Source: Anaerolineaceae bacterium (GTDB lineage Bacteria > Chloroflexota > Anaerolineae > Anaerolineales > Anaerolineaceae). From it: a DNA stretch of 23,765 nt. Shown here in pieces: positions 2,453-17,148 of the stretch (position 1 is the first letter of the stretch; every line of letters starts with the position of its first letter). A program made the translations under genes and the position numbers. The notes beneath the pieces were generated by a model, which was given only the letters and a program-made list of their open reading frames with translations, did no database searches and was not told the origin of the DNA. The stretch lies in assembly GCA_003448875.1 (NCBI GenBank), contig DLXG01000093.1, positions 1 through 23,765 on the forward strand, given 5' to 3'.

Positions 2453-3022
2453 ATGGAGATTCAAACATTTTCATATTGCTCTCCAAAATTGGAGCTGCGT
2501 CCGTGTCCAGAAAAAGGGGGATTTGGTCTTTTTGCAATTGAGCCGATCAGCGCTGGTGAGCTGTTGGCGATGTGGGGTGGTCAGGTCGTTACCAGCGAAC
2601 AATTACAATACCTGCCGGTTGACCGCCAGACGCACGGCATCCAGATTCATGAAGACCTGTATTTGATACCGGTAACTCATGGTGAACCGGCTGATTATTT
2701 CAATCATTCCTGCAATCCCAATTGCGGTCTGGATTCACCAATTTCGCTGGTAGCCATGCGGGATATCGAAGTGGGAGAAGAAGCCTGCTTTGATTATGCC
2801 ATGAGCGATTCCTCGGATTATGATGAGTTTGAATGCCATTGCGGCGCTCCAAACTGCCGTAAGACGATCACCGGACGAGACTGGATGCTCCCCGAATTGC
2901 AGGAGAGATACTTTGGGTTCTTTTCTCCCTATCTTCAACGCCGGATCGAGAAAATGCGTGAAGAGATTAAGGTCAAAGGAAACGGCGGTAAATCTATCAA
3001 GAAAACCAACGGGAAAAAGTAG
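2453..3022 (+). CDS. SET-domain protein-lysine methyltransferase
   Basis: SET proteins transfer a methyl group from SAM to a lysine side chain, and bacterial members are small cytosolic enzymes with mostly unknown targets. The 189-aa protein has the whole core: KGGFGLFAIEPISAGELL (residues 21-38), the knot motif NHSCNPNC (84-91), the catalytic-tyrosine segment FDY (113-115), and a post-SET Cys cluster CHCGAPNC (128-135), which with the Cys of NHSC would hold a zinc ion. No pre-SET region is present. The C-terminus is a lysine-rich tail that could bind nucleic acid. The start is fixed by AAAGGAG four bases upstream. It lies 19 bases before a SAM hydrolase gene, probably co-transcribed. The target cannot be deduced here. 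Confidence 0.88.
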   Translation: MEIQTFSYCSPKLELRPCPEKGGFGLFAIEPISAGELLAMWGGQVVTSEQLQYLPVDRQTHGIQIHEDLYLIPVTHGEPADYFNHSCNPNCGLDSPISLVAMRDIEVGEEACFDYAMSDSSDYDEFECHCGAPNCRKTITGRDWMLPELQERYFGFFSPYLQRRIEKMREEIKVKGNGGKSIKKTNGKK

Positions 3023-10843: not shown

Positions 10844-13800
10844 ATGGCAGAACTATCCATACCGGTTACCCGTACGAAAGTCATCCTGCCGCGCCGCCGA
10901 GCAGATATTCTGACGCGGCAGCGCTTAATTTCTTACCTCGATGAGTTAAGCGACAACCGCTTGATCATCATCGCTGCTCCGGCCGGTTATGGAAAGACGA
11001 CTCTTTTGATTGATTTTGCCCATCAAAATCAAATGCCGGTGTGCTGGCTTTCTCTGGATACCATGGATGCCGAACCACAGCGGTTTATTGCGGGATTTAT
11101 CTCTGCTATTCAGGTGGTATTTCCCAACTTTGGTAGAAACAGTATCCCGGCGTTGAATGCCATGCCGCAGGAAAGGCTAAATCTGGAGTCGTTAGTTTCA
11201 TTGATTGTCAATGATATTTACGAAACGATAGATGAACATTTTATTCTGGTGATTGATGATTATCATCTGGTTGAGCATGTCCAGGAAGTTAACTATTTCA
11301 TCAATCGTTTTTTGCTGTTAGCAGATGAAAACTGCCACGTGTTTATCTCTTCGCGAAGGCTGCTCCCTCTGGCTGATATGCCCCTGCTGGTAGCCCGCTC
11401 AATGGTTGGCGGTATTGGTTTTGAAGAACTTGCGTTTCAACCGGAAGAGATCCGAAATTTGTACCTACAGAATTTTGGCATTTCGCTTTCGGAACAGCAG
11501 GTTGAAGAACTCTCAAACCTGACCGAGGGATGGATCACCGGCTTGGTTCTTTCTACGCAGGTGGAAAACGGTCAGATAAAAACCCGTTTTCAGGCAAAAA
11601 AAGTTGCCGGCGTGAGTATTTATGATTATCTTGCCCAGCAGGTCTTAGAGCAACAGCGAGAAGAACTGAAAAAATTTTTATATCGGACTTCACTATTCGA
11701 GGAATTTGATATCCGGATTTGCGAAGAAGTACTGGGCAAAGGCTTGAACCTCCAAATGGACTGGCAGCTCTTGATGGAGGAAGTTCAACGAAATAATCTG
11801 TTTGTTTTACCGGTTATTGAAGAAGATCGGATCTGGCTGCGTTATCATCATCTATTTCGGGATTTTCTTCAAAACCGTTTGTTTAAAGAGTTTCCTGACG
11901 AGGGTCAGCGGATTCTCAATCGCCTTTCAGAATATTATCAGGAAGTAGGGGAATGGGAACGCGCTTATCAAATTTATGAGCGAATTGGAAACAAAGAAGC
12001 CAAAGCCCGTCTGATCGAACGAGCCGGTGCGATTATGGTTTCCAAAGGCCGAATCCTTACCCTGCAAGCCTGGTTGGAGGATTTACCATCTCTGTATATT
12101 GAGCGTTCTCCCTTGTTATTATCCATTCAAGGGGTGGTTCGGGTAATGCTGGGGGATGTGCGGGGTGGAATTGAAGCGTTCAACCACTCTCTCACCTTGT
12201 GCTCAGAGGCAGAGACTACATTATACGCCCATACGTTGATACGGCGGTCAGGTGCTTACCGGATGCAGGGGGATTATGCCCGTGCATTAGAAGATGCCGA
12301 AAAAGCCCTCCAGGTACTGTCCCATCTCCCAGCCGAAAAACATCTCTATGCAACCGCCTTGCACGCCAAGGGAACAGTTCTGCACTACCTTGGAAAAATC
12401 AATCAGTCATTATCCTGGCTGATCCAGGCCAGAGACATTTTTTTTGACCTCGGGGATGAGGAATCTGCGGCTAAGGTAGCCATGGAAATTGCCATGGTTT
12501 ATCGCTATCTTGGCAACCTCGAACATGCTGAAAAAATCTACAAAGACACCTTACTGTTTTATCAGAGCAGCGGTAACTTAATCTGGCAGGCTAACTTGCT
12601 GAATAACCTCGGTGTCCTGCATTCACTGGCAGGGATGTATGAAACAGCGCTGGAGGAATTGGAAAAGGCGATTCAGTACGCCAGATTGGGCGGTTATAAC
12701 CGCTTGGAAGCGTACGCGCTGACCAGCCTGGGGGATTTGTTCAAGGATGTAGGGGCTTTTGTCGAAGCAGAGCAAGCCTACCAGAAAGCCACTCAATTAA
12801 TCCAACAAGTTGAGGATCAGTTCCTTCGTTTCTATTTGACTCTGGTCAGGAGTGATTTGCAATTAGTCCGCAATCAGATTACTGAAGCAGAAAACATCCT
12901 GAATTCTGCCTGGCAGGCTGCGGTTGATGCGGGTTCTCTGTATGAAGAAGCGTTGTGCAAATGGATTGCCGGGAAGATTGCCATATCTAAAGAGGATTAT
13001 GAGGCTGCCCGTTGCAATCTTGAAGAAGCCGAGACCTATTTTTCGCTGGAAAGGCATCATGTCGAAGCCATTCGCTGCCGGATGTTATTGCTGGCAGTAG
13101 TTGTGCGAATGGGGGATGAAATTGAGCTCAAACGTCGCATGGAAGAATTACTGCCGGTGGTTCAAGATGTCAAATTTCACCATTTGATTGGAAGCAGCGG
13201 TGAAGTATTGGGGAGAGTTCTTCAAGATGAAGATATGCTGCCGGAGGCAGTGCGGGTTCTTTCAGTACCATTCCTGAAGGTGATTCGCCAGCATGCCAGA
13301 CATTTGCCCAATGCCCGAAAACAAATCAGGCAACGCTCTCAGGAAGTTCCGGTATCTCCTCCCGAGTTGACTATTTTAACTTTTGGAAGAATCCAGATTT
13401 CTCTTGGAGATCATATTATTACCGGCTTGGAATGGCGTTCCCAAACGGCGCGCGATTTGATGCTGTTGTTAATGCTGCACCCGGAAGGGTTGACCAAAGA
13501 GCAAATTGGATTGATCTTTTGGCCGGACATCAGTCCCGCGGAGTTAAGAATCCGATTTAAGAACACGATTTACCGCCTAAGGCACGCTGCTGGTAAGGAT
13601 GTGGTGGTGTTTGAAGATGATATTTATTACTTTAACCGTGCCATGGATTACGAGGCTGATTTCGAAACCTTCAATCGCGAAATCCAACTTGCGGGACTTG
13701 CCCGTAAACCGGAACAGGAAATTTTACATTACCGCCGGGCGGTTGAACTTTACAAGGGAGATTTTTTGCCGGAAATCAACGAGGAGTGGGTACTTGTTGA

Positions 13801-14113
13801 AAGAGAACGCTTACACCAGAAGTATATAACCGCCTTGAAGCGGCTGGTTGAGTTGTATTTGGAAACTTCTCAACCGGTGGAAGCGCTGGTATTTGCAAAC
13901 AAATATCTCCAGTTTGATCCAGTTAACGAGCATGTCCATCAGTTAATGATGCGTTGTTATGCCAGCATGGGAAATGTGAATATGGTGGTTAAGCAGTACA
14001 AGGCTTTAAGTGCCCTCTTGGAGAAAGAACTGGGTAGTGAACCAAGCCCGCAAACAATCACGCTTTATGATTTATTAACCCGCAATCGCCGCAAAACTGA
14101 AGCCGATACATGA
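10844..14113 (+). CDS. MalT-like ATPase regulator with TPRs and C-terminal wHTH-BTAD
   Basis: This 1089-aa protein looks like a one-component signal-integrating transcription activator. Residues 1-380 form a MalT/STAND-type ATPase with P-loop APAGYGKT (45-52), Walker B FILVIDDYH (133-141) and a winged-helix-like YHHLFRDFLQNRL segment. About residues 390-830 are tetratricopeptide repeats, the usual ligand or partner sensor. From about 841 comes an OmpR-type winged helix (LTFGRIQISLGD, LEWRSQTARDLMLLL, RFKNTIYRLRHAAG), then a BTAD domain (from about 928 to 1085), as in SARP activators. It has a BTAD output where MalT has a LuxR helix-turn-helix. The start has no clear ribosome binding site. The gene sits immediately upstream of phased direct repeats and a small-peptide operon, its likely target. 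Confidence 0.9.
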   Translation: MAELSIPVTRTKVILPRRRADILTRQRLISYLDELSDNRLIIIAAPAGYGKTTLLIDFAHQNQMPVCWLSLDTMDAEPQRFIAGFISAIQVVFPNFGRNSIPALNAMPQERLNLESLVSLIVNDIYETIDEHFILVIDDYHLVEHVQEVNYFINRFLLLADENCHVFISSRRLLPLADMPLLVARSMVGGIGFEELAFQPEEIRNLYLQNFGISLSEQQVEELSNLTEGWITGLVLSTQVENGQIKTRFQAKKVAGVSIYDYLAQQVLEQQREELKKFLYRTSLFEEFDIRICEEVLGKGLNLQMDWQLLMEEVQRNNLFVLPVIEEDRIWLRYHHLFRDFLQNRLFKEFPDEGQRILNRLSEYYQEVGEWERAYQIYERIGNKEAKARLIERAGAIMVSKGRILTLQAWLEDLPSLYIERSPLLLSIQGVVRVMLGDVRGGIEAFNHSLTLCSEAETTLYAHTLIRRSGAYRMQGDYARALEDAEKALQVLSHLPAEKHLYATALHAKGTVLHYLGKINQSLSWLIQARDIFFDLGDEESAAKVAMEIAMVYRYLGNLEHAEKIYKDTLLFYQSSGNLIWQANLLNNLGVLHSLAGMYETALEELEKAIQYARLGGYNRLEAYALTSLGDLFKDVGAFVEAEQAYQKATQLIQQVEDQFLRFYLTLVRSDLQLVRNQITEAENILNSAWQAAVDAGSLYEEALCKWIAGKIAISKEDYEAARCNLEEAETYFSLERHHVEAIRCRMLLLAVVVRMGDEIELKRRMEELLPVVQDVKFHHLIGSSGEVLGRVLQDEDMLPEAVRVLSVPFLKVIRQHARHLPNARKQIRQRSQEVPVSPPELTILTFGRIQISLGDHIITGLEWRSQTARDLMLLLMLHPEGLTKEQIGLIFWPDISPAELRIRFKNTIYRLRHAAGKDVVVFEDDIYYFNRAMDYEADFETFNREIQLAGLARKPEQEILHYRRAVELYKGDFLPEINEEWVLVERERLHQKYITALKRLVELYLETSQPVEALVFANKYLQFDPVNEHVHQLMMRCYASMGNVNMVVKQYKALSALLEKELGSEPSPQTITLYDLLTRNRRKTEADT

Positions 14114-14126
14114 AGTCGGTTCGATC

Positions 14127-14148
14127 AAACGTTAACAAAACGTTAACA
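14127..14148 (+). repeat. Perfect tandem 11-bp direct repeat, possible activator site
   Basis: AAACGTTAACA occurs twice in direct tandem, so the CGTTAAC heptamers recur with an 11-bp period and a four-base spacer. This is the geometry described for binding sites of SARP/BTAD activators, which use heptameric direct repeats one helical turn apart. The repeats begin 14 bases after the stop of the BTAD regulator. That they bind this regulator is inference. Confidence 0.6.
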
Positions 14149-14159
14149 TTAGAACCTCG

Positions 14160-14204
14160 CAAAACAGCCTCAAAACCGGTTTACGGAAGCCTCTTTGGAA
14201 GCCT
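14160..14204 (+). repeat. Two further phased direct-repeat pairs
   Basis: CAAAAC recurs at 14160-14165 and 14171-14176 (period 11), and GGAAGCCT recurs exactly at 14185-14192 and 14197-14204 (period 12). The second pair ends where the -35 would stand for a -10-like TCTAAT at 14227-14232; a weaker -10 candidate, TAAACT, is at 14214-14219. Repeats replacing a -35 element fit an activator-dependent promoter for the peptide gene at 14254. Confidence 0.5.
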
Positions 14205-14253
14205 ACCCCTGATTAAACTGAAGGTATCTAATTACAAAAAAGGAGAGGCTGAA

Positions 14254-14379
14254 ATGAAAAAGATCAATTCCCGTGTCGTGTTGTTCGTTCTGACGGTTGC
14301 GATGTTTGTTTTGGGTTCAGGTGCTCCGGAAGCCGGTGGCGGCATCATCAATCGGATCTTCACTTTCCCGGGCTGGTAA
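14254..14379 (+). CDS. 41-aa exported or membrane peptide
   Basis: The tiny gene has a strong ribosome binding site (AGGAGAGG, four to five bases before the ATG), so it is likely real. The protein has a basic N-terminus (MKKINSR), one hydrophobic helix of about 14 residues (VVLFVLTVAMFVLG), then SGAPEAGGG and a C-terminal IINRIFTFPGW. It resembles a signal peptide with a very short mature part; cleavage might fall after Gly23 or Ala27, or after the GGG run. I do not recognise the family. It is the first gene behind the phased repeats and 26 bases ahead of the DUF5317 gene. Possible roles are a secreted signal, a small membrane regulator or a processed peptide. The open frame extends upstream to 14110, but that part lacks a ribosome binding site and carries the repeats. 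Confidence 0.7.
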   Translation: MKKINSRVVLFVLTVAMFVLGSGAPEAGGGIINRIFTFPGW

Positions 14380-14405
14380 TCTACCCAGACAAAACTTTTG
14401 CTTGA

Positions 14406-14993
14406 ATGATACTCCTCACAGCCGTCATTGCAGGCCTGGGTCTTGGGCTAATTCGAGCAAAAATCAACAACCGCCCTTACCGTCCTTTCCAGTTTCGATA
14501 TGGTTGGATGGTGCTGGTGGCCCTCTTCATCCAATGGCTGGCTTTCGGGTTTCCCCCAACCAGAACCATTTACCCGGATGAGGCGGCAAGCATCAGTCTA
14601 GTACTTTCACAATTCATCCTGCTTATCTTCGCATGGTTCAATCGGAAAATTCCCGGTTTCTGGCTGCTGACGATCGGCCTGGTGCTGAATCTGTTGGTCA
14701 TCAGTCTGAACGGCGGCTTTATGCCCATCAGCCCCGAGACCGTTCAGTGGCTGCGGGGCGACCCTGCTACGGCGGGTTGGGAGGTCGGCGAGCGGTTAGG
14801 AACAGGGAAAGATATTGTGCTCCCGCTTGAACAAACCAAACTCGAATTTCTTTCAGACCGCTTCCGAACGCCAGACAATCCTTATTATCGGGTCGCTTTC
14901 AGCGCGGGAGATGTGTTGATCGCCATTGGAGCCTTCTGGTTGTTATGGTCAGTCGGTGGACAGGCAGAACGAAATTCGAGAAAGGAGACTTAA
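14406..14993 (+). CDS. DUF5317 family membrane protein
   Basis: This is a 195-aa integral membrane protein with four to five hydrophobic segments: MILLTAVIAGLGLGLI, WMVLVALFIQWLAFGF, AASISLVLSQFILLIFAW, GFWLLTIGLVLNLLVISL and, near the end, AGDVLIAIGAFWLLWSVG. The family marks are NGGFMPISPET after the fourth helix, the loop with LEFLSDRF, and the FSAGDVLIAIG segment. DUF5317 proteins are known from Chloroflexota and Firmicutes and have no assigned function. No clear ribosome binding site precedes the ATG, so translation may depend on the upstream peptide gene. It ends two bases before the start of the NHLP-type gene, hence same operon. Confidence 0.82.
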   Translation: MILLTAVIAGLGLGLIRAKINNRPYRPFQFRYGWMVLVALFIQWLAFGFPPTRTIYPDEAASISLVLSQFILLIFAWFNRKIPGFWLLTIGLVLNLLVISLNGGFMPISPETVQWLRGDPATAGWEVGERLGTGKDIVLPLEQTKLEFLSDRFRTPDNPYYRVAFSAGDVLIAIGAFWLLWSVGGQAERNSRKET

Positions 14994-14995
14994 CG

Positions 14996-15283
14996 ATGAC
15001 ACCCACGCTTTTGGAAACGAGAAAAACCAATTATCGGGATGTTTCAGAAGAATATGGCCGTATTCTCACCGCTGCTGTTATCAGCGCCCAGTTCCGCCAG
15101 TTATTACTCAGCAATCCTGCCAAAGCACTGGCCGCAGGGTTTGGTGGTGAGGCATTCCAGCTCAGCAACGAAGATCGTTCCCGTTTGGTTGCCATTCGGG
15201 CTACTTCCCTGGCAGACTTTGCCTCTCAGTTAAGTGGTTACAATGCCAACCGCTCGGTTCAGTCAGCGGTGTGTGGAGATTAA
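14996..15283 (+). CDS. NHLP-clan (Os1348-like) small protein, possible RiPP precursor
   Basis: The 95-aa product carries the pattern of nitrile-hydratase-leader-like proteins: ILTAAVISAQFRQLLLSNPAKALAAGFGGEAFQLSNEDRSRLVAI, that is a helix with FRQLLL-NP-KAL followed by an 'LS-ED' helix. Such leaders precede a core peptide in some RiPPs, but many members are stand-alone. The C-terminal tail is short, about 20 residues ending SVQSAVCGD, with one Cys. The start at 14996 follows AAAGGAG at good spacing; the open frame continues upstream only by overlapping the DUF5317 gene. No cyclodehydratase, radical SAM enzyme or peptidase-transporter is in the window, so precursor status is uncertain. Confidence 0.75.
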   Translation: MTPTLLETRKTNYRDVSEEYGRILTAAVISAQFRQLLLSNPAKALAAGFGGEAFQLSNEDRSRLVAIRATSLADFASQLSGYNANRSVQSAVCGD

Positions 15284-15302
15284 TGGATAACTTCATTAAC
15301 TA

Positions 15303-15329
15303 GGTATGGGGATACCGGAAACTGTTTCC
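15303..15329 (+). other. Two adjacent small hairpins before the HD-GYP gene
   Basis: GGTAT-GGGG-ATACC (15303-15316) is followed without a gap by GGAAA-CTG-TTTCC (15317-15329). They lie between the NHLP gene and the preferred start at 15378. They could stack on each other and shape translation or mRNA stability. The upstream in-frame ATG at 15306 lies inside the first stem, which counts against it as a start. Confidence 0.4.
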
Positions 15330-15377
15330 CTGCCCGTGCATCGAAGCCCGCGTTTCTGCTCACAAGGAATGGACTCC

Positions 15378-16535
15378 ATGATTACAGGGAATCTTTATTT
15401 TGGCGGTGATTTTTTCAACCGCCTTGGCAAAATAAAAACCCCTCTTGTCACAGAGGTTTGGGGGGAGTCGGGCGATCTGGCTGCACAATGGCTGCAGGTT
15501 GAAGGATCGTCCAGTTTGCTTTTTGAAATCACGGTTAAAGCAGTTGAACTTCTGGATGTTAAGCATTGTCAGGTTTTAGTTTTATGTGCAGATGGTACTT
15601 TTCATCGGCAGGCGTCTTATCAGTCTCAAACTTTATTGAACCGTTCCAACGGTGTGTTACGCAATTATCCCCATTTGAATCATTTTCTTCAAAGGGTCGT
15701 TCTCAATGACGGCCCGATATTGATCGGTTATCGAGAAAACATCTTAGGATCGGAAGAACGGCGTTTGTTGAAGTTGCAAGCCAATGAAAACCTGATGCTA
15801 TTTCCAATGAGGTTGGAAACTGAGCCCGTTGGGATCTTTGGTTTATCGTTCGACCGCTTTCATTCCATTGAACAGCGATTACCGCTGGCAATGATGTTTG
15901 CCGAACAAGCCGCGCAGGCCATTCAGCGGGAAGGTCTGGCACTCACGGAAGAAGAGTCGGCAGTAGAAATTGTGCTGGCTTTGGCTAAAGCCCTTGAATC
16001 CAGAGATTTATCTACCGGATCGCACTGCCGTAGAGTAACCCGCATTGCTGAACAGGTGGCACTGCGCATGGGATGTTCTTTTCGCGAAATACAGGATATT
16101 CGAAGGGCTGCTTTATTACATGATATTGGCAAAATTGGAATCCCGGATCAAATTCTGCACAAACCCGGCCCGCTGACCGAGCGAGAATGGGCAATCATGC
16201 GTCAACACCCGGAAATTGGGGCGCGAATCCTGCGGCTGGTACATGGATTAAGTGAGGTTGCCAAACTGGTGTTGGCTCATCACGAACATTTTGATGGGTC
16301 AGGCTATCCTTATGGATTAAGCGGAGATGCGATACCGCTGGGTGCCCGGATTTTGAAGGTGGTGGATGCTTTTGGGGCGATGACTACTGATCGAATTTAT
16401 CGCCCGGCCTTGTCTTTCCGAGATGCGGTTGCGGAATTAAAGCGCTGTGCAGGTACCGATTTTGATCCTCGGGTTGTGGATGTTTTTCTGGACATGCTAA
16501 ATACAGACTCGGATGGGATGGAAGATGTAGGGTGA
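15378..16535 (+). CDS. GAF-HD-GYP phosphodiesterase
   Basis: HD-GYP proteins degrade cyclic di-GMP (some act on other cyclic dinucleotides). The N-terminal half has GAF-like features (sensor domain, LLFEITVKAVELL through PVGIFGLSFD). The C-terminal half is a complete HD-GYP domain: ALLHDIGKIGIPD (HD at 248-249), MRQHPEIGARIL, HHEHFDGSGYPYGL (from 301), and GARILKVVDAFGAMTTDR. All metal-binding signatures are kept, so it should be active. I choose the ATG at 15378 (385 aa), nine bases after AAGGA; in-frame ATGs at 15306 and 15369 are less favourable, the latter touching the AAGGA. It closes the operon that begins with the 41-aa peptide and is followed by a strong terminator. Cytosolic, as no membrane segment is seen. 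Confidence 0.9.
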   Translation: MITGNLYFGGDFFNRLGKIKTPLVTEVWGESGDLAAQWLQVEGSSSLLFEITVKAVELLDVKHCQVLVLCADGTFHRQASYQSQTLLNRSNGVLRNYPHLNHFLQRVVLNDGPILIGYRENILGSEERRLLKLQANENLMLFPMRLETEPVGIFGLSFDRFHSIEQRLPLAMMFAEQAAQAIQREGLALTEEESAVEIVLALAKALESRDLSTGSHCRRVTRIAEQVALRMGCSFREIQDIRRAALLHDIGKIGIPDQILHKPGPLTEREWAIMRQHPEIGARILRLVHGLSEVAKLVLAHHEHFDGSGYPYGLSGDAIPLGARILKVVDAFGAMTTDRIYRPALSFRDAVAELKRCAGTDFDPRVVDVFLDMLNTDSDGMEDVG

Positions 16536-16555: not shown

Positions 16556-16601
16556 GGGTGCCCCGTGCGAAGTGTACAGCGCAACGGGGCACCCATTTTT
16601 T
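16556..16601 (+). terminator. Rho-independent terminator after HD-GYP gene
   Basis: A perfect 11-bp stem, GGGTGCCCCGT (16556-16566) with ACGGGGCACCC (16584-16594), is followed by ATTTTTT. It is directed with the + strand and ends the peptide-DUF5317-NHLP-HD-GYP operon. On the other strand it lies just past the stop of the membrane-protein gene but lacks a U-run there. Confidence 0.85.
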
Positions 16602-16613
16602 GGAAAGCAATTC

Positions 16614-17030
16614 CTAGCCGTTTGAAGCGACGCGGCGATTAATCAGGCTGATGCGGACTTCCGGCAGGTCGGTGTAGAGCAGATACAAAGCCGAAAGAAA
16701 AATACTAAGCAGGGTGAGGGAAACATACGAAACGTTTAAACGGACTGCCCCATCCACCAAAATAGAAGCGCGCGGCATCAGCAACATCAATCGGCTGATG
16801 ATATTAAAGCCGTGAGCAAAGGAAATGAGGTACCACGGCCAGAGTTGGACGGCCCCGCGAAAGACCAACTGTATCGAGGCAATTAAGGCAAAAATGGCTA
16901 GAAGTAGCGGCAACCACCATTCCTGAGTTGCGGGCGAATACGATTCAGGAGGGAGGAGCAAAATTGGAAAAAACTGGATGATAAATAAAATAATAACAAC
17001 ATTCGGTTGGGCAAGTTTTTTCCGCAACAT
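16614..17030 (-). CDS. Four-helix membrane protein, unknown
   Basis: The 138-aa protein has four hydrophobic stretches: VVIILFIIQFFPILLLPP, WWLPLLLAIFALIASIQLVF, WYLISFAHGFNIISRLMLL and YVSLTLLSIFLSALYLLY, with a short basic C-terminus (LINRRVASNG). I prefer the ATG at 17030 (MLRKKLAQPN), preceded by GGGAG; a longer frame begins at a TTG at 17087 with a sequence that is not membrane-like. I recognise no family. It stands alone, convergent with the HD-GYP operon and divergent from livK. Confidence 0.7.
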   Translation of the reverse strand: MLRKKLAQPNVVIILFIIQFFPILLLPPESYSPATQEWWLPLLLAIFALIASIQLVFRGAVQLWPWYLISFAHGFNIISRLMLLMPRASILVDGAVRLNVSYVSLTLLSIFLSALYLLYTDLPEVRISLINRRVASNG

Positions 17031-17148
17031 AATTTGTTGGCTCCCGGTATTTTGGTTTGGACAAAAGGGGAATGGCTTACAGGTCAATATTACAATTTGT
17101 GAGTGTAAATGTCAAGCAATGCTTCAAAAATTAGAGGAAGTTTAACAC

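Follow-up and report, generated by a model that had tools for sequence, protein, structure and literature searches.

The window analysed here, a stretch of 23,765 nucleotides (contig DLXG01000093.1) from an Anaerolineaceae bacterium of the phylum Chloroflexota, carries a row of five genes, all on the plus strand between positions 10844 and 16535 and with a strong terminator at their end. They code for a large transcription regulator, a 41-aa micropeptide, a membrane protein of the DUF5317 family, a small NHLP-like protein and an HD-GYP protein, and each was confirmed at the place and on the strand given by an earlier sequence-only reading of this DNA. Most likely, the regulator drives a signalling unit made up of the peptide, DUF5317 and cyclic di-GMP (c-di-GMP). 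A conserved peptide-signalling cassette feeding into c-di-GMP is the explanation that we favour, at a confidence just short of even. The cassette is wider in distribution than first supposed, and the recurrence of a micropeptide gene beside DUF5317, often with HD-GYP, in distant bacteria suggests a peptide-signalling module of which no description was found in the literature searched.

The order regulator, micropeptide, DUF5317, NHLP-like protein and, at some loci, HD-GYP protein recurs across Anaerolineae. The sequence-only reading had made its cassette depend on such recurrence in related genomes, and the order was found at the level of genus, family, order and class. Of 150 genomes from the class, 47 have DUF5317, as do 25 of 61 close relatives. 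In a class sample of 41 loci (the best 41 of 53 DUF5317 matches, window included), the regulator adjoins DUF5317 in 29; all 29 have both the peptide and the NHLP gene, and seven have HD-GYP downstream. The peptide is present in three of the 12 loci devoid of the regulator and missing from nine; contig ends truncate some of these loci. Peptides farther than about 1 kb from DUF5317 were not counted, and L152, L159, L161 and, weakly, L070, in which HD-GYP lies in between, were scored as peptide-less although the peptide is present. Twenty-two additional loci from relatives at genus to order level contain the peptide in 21 cases, the NHLP gene in 22, HD-GYP downstream in 20 and the regulator in 17; wherever the regulator occurs among the family and order relatives, both peptide and NHLP gene accompany it (17/17). 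The genes that flank the cassette here (RelA-like, aldo/keto reductase, LivK and others) were looked for in all 81 loci; they recur in the six loci of the same genus, and outside these only the reductase gave matches (L036 and L164). The flanks are thus shared only within the genus while the cassette stays, so that what is conserved is the cassette itself.

The peptide profile A1 was built from 28 peptides of Anaerolineae only, and the loci of other phyla are thus its independent test. With it, all open reading frames (ORFs) of 20 aa or more were ranked in 40 DUF5317 loci of two other phyla, each locus having 48-134 such frames. In 31 of the 40, the best-ranked ORF is a short hydrophobic peptide of 24-72 aa located 5' of HD-GYP/DUF5317 (a looser motif filter gave 32, but L283 did not resemble the family when inspected by eye and was dropped), and 30 of these 31 peptides end within 400 nt of the next gene. 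Examples of the peptides are MKTIAKVVLAIVTLVLAGGARLWW and MKWGEKVNKTLGVRGLYVLLALALLAILSGAHSKWC. Many peptides of the other phyla are only 24-32 aa long, with about 4-8 residues past the motif described below, and 37 of the 40 loci have HD-GYP on the same strand. Among 149 genomes of the Carboxydothermus phylum, the peptide was matched (E<=1e-3) in 43 of the 52 with DUF5317 and in none of the 97 others; these counts are not independent, as profile A4 includes 12 Bacillota-type peptides from the same genome group. Of 44 such matches, 41 share their strand with an adjacent DUF5317 gene, 40 of them lying 1.4-2.8 kb upstream of it and one just downstream, and the other three lie on contigs with no DUF5317 match. 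Six weaker matches (E>1e-3), none near DUF5317 and two in genomes lacking it, were set aside. DUF5317 also occurs in 82 of 100 genomes from the phylum to which locus L211 belongs. The records of L211 and L197, titled Thermotoga sp. and Neomarinimicrobiota, group in the phylum of L170, titled Bipolaricaulota, and some of these titles are probably wrong. When A1 was searched against 350 genomes of the phylum of the window, 47 were matched at E<=0.01, but many of these matches fall in long frames and probably arose by chance. At E<=1e-5, 18 matches were left, of which 15 share a fetched contig with DUF5317; the contigs of the other three (L149-L151) lack it.

The micropeptide gene (14254..14379, plus strand) encodes MKKINSRVVLFVLTVAMFVLGSGAPEAGGGIINRIFTFPGW, with a basic N-terminus, a hydrophobic segment, an SGAP motif and a C-terminal tail predicted outside, and its start is preceded by AAAAGGAGAGG. 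A longer frame of 89 aa opens at 14110 and is absent in two of three close relatives (L126 and L127), which makes the 41-aa form the likely gene. This ORF is coding: the six pairs formed by four copies from the same genus all display purifying selection, with proportions of synonymous differences of 0.35-0.51 and of nonsynonymous differences of 0.01-0.07. The Anaerolineae peptides share a basic N-terminus, a hydrophobic stretch, a near-invariant G-A-P and a short Gly-rich tail, and their best-conserved feature is a small-residue motif, [AGS]G[AG]. The N-terminal flank is more basic than the tail, as for an N-in/C-out protein, in 67 of 68 peptides (70 minus two from L058 that lack the exact GA motif). 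More than one peptide copy is found in L052, L054, L058, L137 (four), L147, L159, L280 and L291. In the non-identical pairs from such loci, 84 of 86 tail positions are identical, against 170 of 200 in the hydrophobic parts; these counts are small and pairs of repeated copies, such as those within L137, are not independent. Tails differ between lineages. The window peptide finds nothing in Pfam or PHROGs at E<=0.1 and has one NCBIfam row far under its cut-off, and searches of Pfam with 28 A1 members and of NCBIfam with 23 A4 members yielded nothing beyond weak, scattered rows, including NprX (0.04) and YoaJ (0.11), which points to a family missing from the curated libraries tried.

Upstream of the peptide gene, the phased direct repeats reported by the sequence-only reading were recovered: AAACGTTAACA occurs twice with an 11-nt period at 14127-14148, and GGAAGCCT twice at 14185-14204. 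The latter contains the proposed operator of the regulator, GAAGCC-N6-GAAGCC (14186..14203, plus strand, 12-nt period), followed 10 nt past the last GAAGCC by a -10-like hexamer, TAAACT (14214..14219, plus strand). The region earlier put forward for a binding test holds a conserved operator-like repeat. Tandem repeats of 11 or 12 nt exceed shuffled sequence 5' of the peptide in 32 of 54 loci at p<=0.05 and in 24 at p<=0.01, whereas the control segments gave one and none of 51 5' of the regulator and none at either level in 51 inside it. The 54 loci, which are those with both regulator and peptide, are related and include seven from one genus, and are therefore not independent. GAAGCC-N6-GAAGCC is common to 18 loci, seven of which belong to one genus, and TANNNT lies exactly 10 nt after it in 15 of the 18, against about 0.5 in shuffles. 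Within the 2.33-Mb, 77%-complete assembly of the window, the sole exact match to the searched pattern is the one at 14186..14203. The AfsR paper (PMC10936776) describes targets of Streptomyces antibiotic regulatory proteins (SARPs) as direct repeats spaced 11 or 22 bp, with the 3' repeat 8 bp from the -10. The cassette repeat has a fixed distance of its own to the -10, at one offset in 15 of 18 loci, and its period is mostly 12 nt; with its hexamer, it appears laid out like a SARP operator that the regulator would bind. A GTTAAC pair with 11-nt spacing is kept about 65 nt 5' of the hexamer in the close relatives L125, L126 and L127, and this GTTAAC/AAACGTTAACA repeat is perhaps a second regulator site. 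In L340 (G493:C8:80345), a second intergenic GAAGCC-N6-GAAGCC lies about 100 nt 5' of a gene for a large protein that looks secreted by eye, its frame being cut by the locus end; this gene is a possible second target.

Downstream spacing is tight, with 26 nt between peptide and DUF5317 genes, 2 nt between DUF5317 and NHLP genes and 22 nt between NHLP and HD-GYP genes. The peptide and DUF5317 genes of L033 and L034 overlap at stop and start. The strong terminator proposed for the operon is borne out by folding: a GC-rich hairpin with a T run at 16557..16602 (plus strand) has an energy of -30.3 kcal/mol (z -4.4). It is not listed by a consensus terminator scan, as its loop probably exceeds the limit of the scan.

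DUF5317 (14406..14993, plus strand, 195 aa) matches PF17248 at 4e-34 with 118 bits, above the Pfam gathering score of 25 bits. Its structure model is confident (predicted local distance difference test score 90.8) and has five predicted membrane helices (2-20, 34-47, 58-78, 85-101 and 167-183). Topology was assigned from charges counted by hand under the positive-inside rule, by which positively charged loops stay in the cytoplasm. This would place the C-terminus and the loops near 16-32 and 79-84 inside, and the conserved loop 102-165 (NGGxMP to FSxGD) outside, on the same side as the predicted peptide tail. Conserved residues of the family include N, G, D and S; no protease motif was recognised by eye, and no fold match came from a structure comparison that cannot exclude one. 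Seven fusion proteins carry DUF5317 at their N-terminal side: it precedes PAS-GAF-GGDEF in L185, L189, L197 and L231, GAF-GGDEF-EAL in L218, and major facilitator superfamily (MFS) domains in L161 and L233. These fusions suggest that DUF5317 may be a sensory input domain for c-di-GMP enzymes.

The regulator (10844..14113, plus strand, 1089 aa) had been described as a MalT-like ATPase with a SARP-type output, and its domain matches agree: it is a MalT-like ATPase of the STAND (signal transduction ATPases with numerous domains) class, followed by tetratricopeptide repeats (TPRs) and a C-terminal SARP half. Its N-terminus matches the NCBIfam MalT model at 4e-66 (224 bits, under the equivalog cut-off of 537) and PDB 8bob (E 9e-30), and its sequence contains the Walker A motif AGYGKTTL. 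The SARP half matches BTAD (PF03704) at 2e-20, and residues 866-1071 match the AfsR chains 8k60/8jke at about 4e-6.

For the NHLP-like protein (14996..15283, plus strand, 95 aa), the likeness holds, with an Os1348-type NHLP model at 2e-7 and Frankia_peptide at 1e-5, but all curated cut-offs are missed (NF038399 at 30.7 bits against 40, PF14407 at 25.8 against 48, TIGR03793 at 12.9 against 50.9). It also has a profile match (E 0.004) to PDB 6lk7, presumably the Os1348 structure, and no conserved core follows the domain in the NHLP proteins. For the GAF-HD-GYP protein (15306..16535, plus strand), the HD-GYP part stands (HD_5, 1e-41), whereas the N-terminal GAF-like region is weak (7e-4, under cut-off). 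Alignment to 5z7c displays an intact HDIGK...HHE...DGSGYP core with the metal ligands, and the enzyme presumably degrades c-di-GMP. The genome of the window has eight GGDEF matches, some of them partial.

Several known systems resemble the cassette in part. In Streptomyces, afsS is a small gene beside afsR. AfsR itself combines SARP, nucleotide-binding and TPR parts in one protein and the afsS promoter has a tandem-repeat box (PMC10936776), and the cassette is alike in both respects. Its regulator includes the OmpR-like DNA-binding and BTAD parts of large AfsR-like SARPs, but their order (N-terminal SARP, NOD, TPR) is replaced by MalT-like ATPase, TPR and a C-terminal SARP half. Further differences are the membrane micropeptide as small product, the mostly 12-nt period of the repeats, and the DUF5317 and HD-GYP genes that come next. 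RRNPP systems (Rgg/SHP, PlcR/PapR, Rap/Phr) pair a TPR regulator with an adjoining short hydrophobic pro-peptide of exported type; the cassette peptide, which has an N-in/C-out signature and may be exported, lies beside a TPR regulator. The cassette lacks the RRNPP-type helix-turn-helix or Rap receptor architecture, however, its DNA-binding part being SARP-type and its ATPase MalT-like. Membrane-located DUF5317 is the more likely receptor, and in the two other phyla read, the core occurs without a TPR regulator. In the Rpf/DSF system (RpfC-RpfG), an outside fatty-acid signal acts on an HD-GYP phosphodiesterase through a histidine kinase and a response regulator, whereas the cassette has no gene for either. 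The NHLP-like protein recalls Os1348, an NHLP-clan protein of Pseudomonas sp. Os17, but Os1348 has putative modification genes beside it (PMC7726476). No modification enzyme of ribosomally synthesized and post-translationally modified peptides (RiPPs) is among the five cassette products; of the other ORFs in the window, the scan covered a part.

Under the favoured explanation, the regulator would bind the tandem repeat just 5' of the -10 and turn the operon on. The micropeptide would insert N-in/C-out and display or release its short C-terminal tail outside the cell, where DUF5317 might sense it via the outside loop. DUF5317 and, where present, the co-encoded HD-GYP enzyme would then lower c-di-GMP, a step proposed because of gene linkage and the DUF5317-GGDEF/EAL fusions. 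For the NHLP-like protein, a role as small regulatory partner is probable, and the TPR region of the regulator may sense the peptide or the NHLP protein, thereby closing a positive-feedback loop. A bolder version, less likely than not, is a peptide communication system that spans three phyla or more and has no sequence kinship to known quorum-sensing families, with a propeptide of ~24-60 aa, the [AGS]G[AG] motif, a short lineage-specific tail, DUF5317 as membrane receptor domain, HD-GYP or fused GGDEF/EAL as output and, added in Anaerolineae, a STAND-TPR-SARP regulator that autoinduces the operon.

Several observations weigh against peptide signalling into c-di-GMP. Its weakest point in Anaerolineae is the output, since no HD-GYP was found in the stretch examined around DUF5317, on contigs some of which end early, in 31 of the 41 class-sample loci (eight have it downstream, two upstream), as against three of the 40 loci from the two other phyla. 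Of the five-gene system first proposed, the order is thus conserved, while HD-GYP is not a constant member and the peptide/DUF5317/HD-GYP core also occurs in other phyla with no detected regulator or NHLP gene. The nine class-sample loci with neither regulator nor counted peptide count here too, although three have fewer than 900 bases upstream, as do the 9 of 52 DUF5317 genomes of the Carboxydothermus phylum with no peptide match at E<=1e-3. In 9 of the 40 other-phylum loci, the peptide is not the upstream top match: a similar peptide ranks first downstream of DUF5317 in L297 and L298, and L274, one of the remaining seven, has a peptide-like frame not ranked first. No significant repeat lies upstream of the peptide in 22 of 54 loci, the period is mostly 12 nt rather than the 11 or 22 nt of SARP targets, and L136 (G496:C5) retains the operator repeat and DUF5317 without peptide or adjacent regulator. 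Finally, proline directly follows the small-residue motif in at least 54 of 68 tails, a lower bound as some tails were cut two residues early by the script. Signal peptidase I disfavours proline in this position, and the peptide may therefore remain membrane-bound.

This last point belongs to the leading rival, a serious contender though itself rather doubtful, in which the micropeptide is a membrane-resident single-span subunit or regulator that packs via [AGS]G[AG] on DUF5317 or on the HD-GYP membrane region and adjusts the c-di-GMP turnover of its own cell with no export. The motif as the most conserved feature, the few residues past it in many 24-32-aa peptides of other phyla and the proline of most Chloroflexota peptides all fit such a role, as does MASE9 in the partner HD-GYP of L215 (5.6e-8, above cut-off) and weakly L170 (below cut-off), with none in L188. 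Repeated copies whose tails are more alike than their helices, and tails that vary by lineage, are more expected of a signal, the pairs being few and partly non-independent (L137). DUF5317 could instead process or export the peptide rather than sense it, which its close proximity to the peptide in most loci examined, its two MFS fusions and its conserved N, G, D and S residues would suit; this is unlikely, as the GGDEF and GGDEF-EAL fusions point to signalling input, no protease motif was recognised by eye and no fold match came from comparisons that cannot exclude one. An antimicrobial or RiPP cluster, with the peptide or NHLP protein as precursor and DUF5317 as immunity or export, could draw on the resemblance to RiPP leader regions and Os1348 and on the repeated peptide copies. 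We consider it very improbable given five genes with no modification enzyme, NHLP proteins with no conserved core after the domain, and a core that stands beside HD-GYP in three phyla with no detected NHLP gene. Adjacency by chance or clonal inheritance, with no joint function, is scarcely credible and already contradicted by the comparative data: the order is kept across families with different flanks and in other phyla, and the genes are separated by short gaps or overlap.

Away from the cassette, a SET-domain protein (PF00856, 7e-13) is encoded at 2453-3022 of this bacterial window, beside a SAM (S-adenosylmethionine) hydroxide adenosyltransferase gene. A minus-strand ORF at 16614-17087 has no Pfam or NCBIfam match and was seen, among the loci read, only in those of the same genus.

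A density-dependent peptide of Thermotoga maritima (gene TM0504) was reportedly described by Johnson in 2005 and is a possible relative of the micropeptide family. The T. maritima genome carries DUF5317. According to the review PMC4187201, the peptide is linked to exopolysaccharide. The cassette suggests a gene-level test of this older claim of peptide quorum sensing in Thermotoga. For DUF5317, a widespread domain of unknown function, it indicates a probable role in sensory input to c-di-GMP, and it opens peptide signalling to direct tests in Chloroflexota, in Carboxydothermus-type Bacillota and in the phylum that holds the Bipolaricaulota records.

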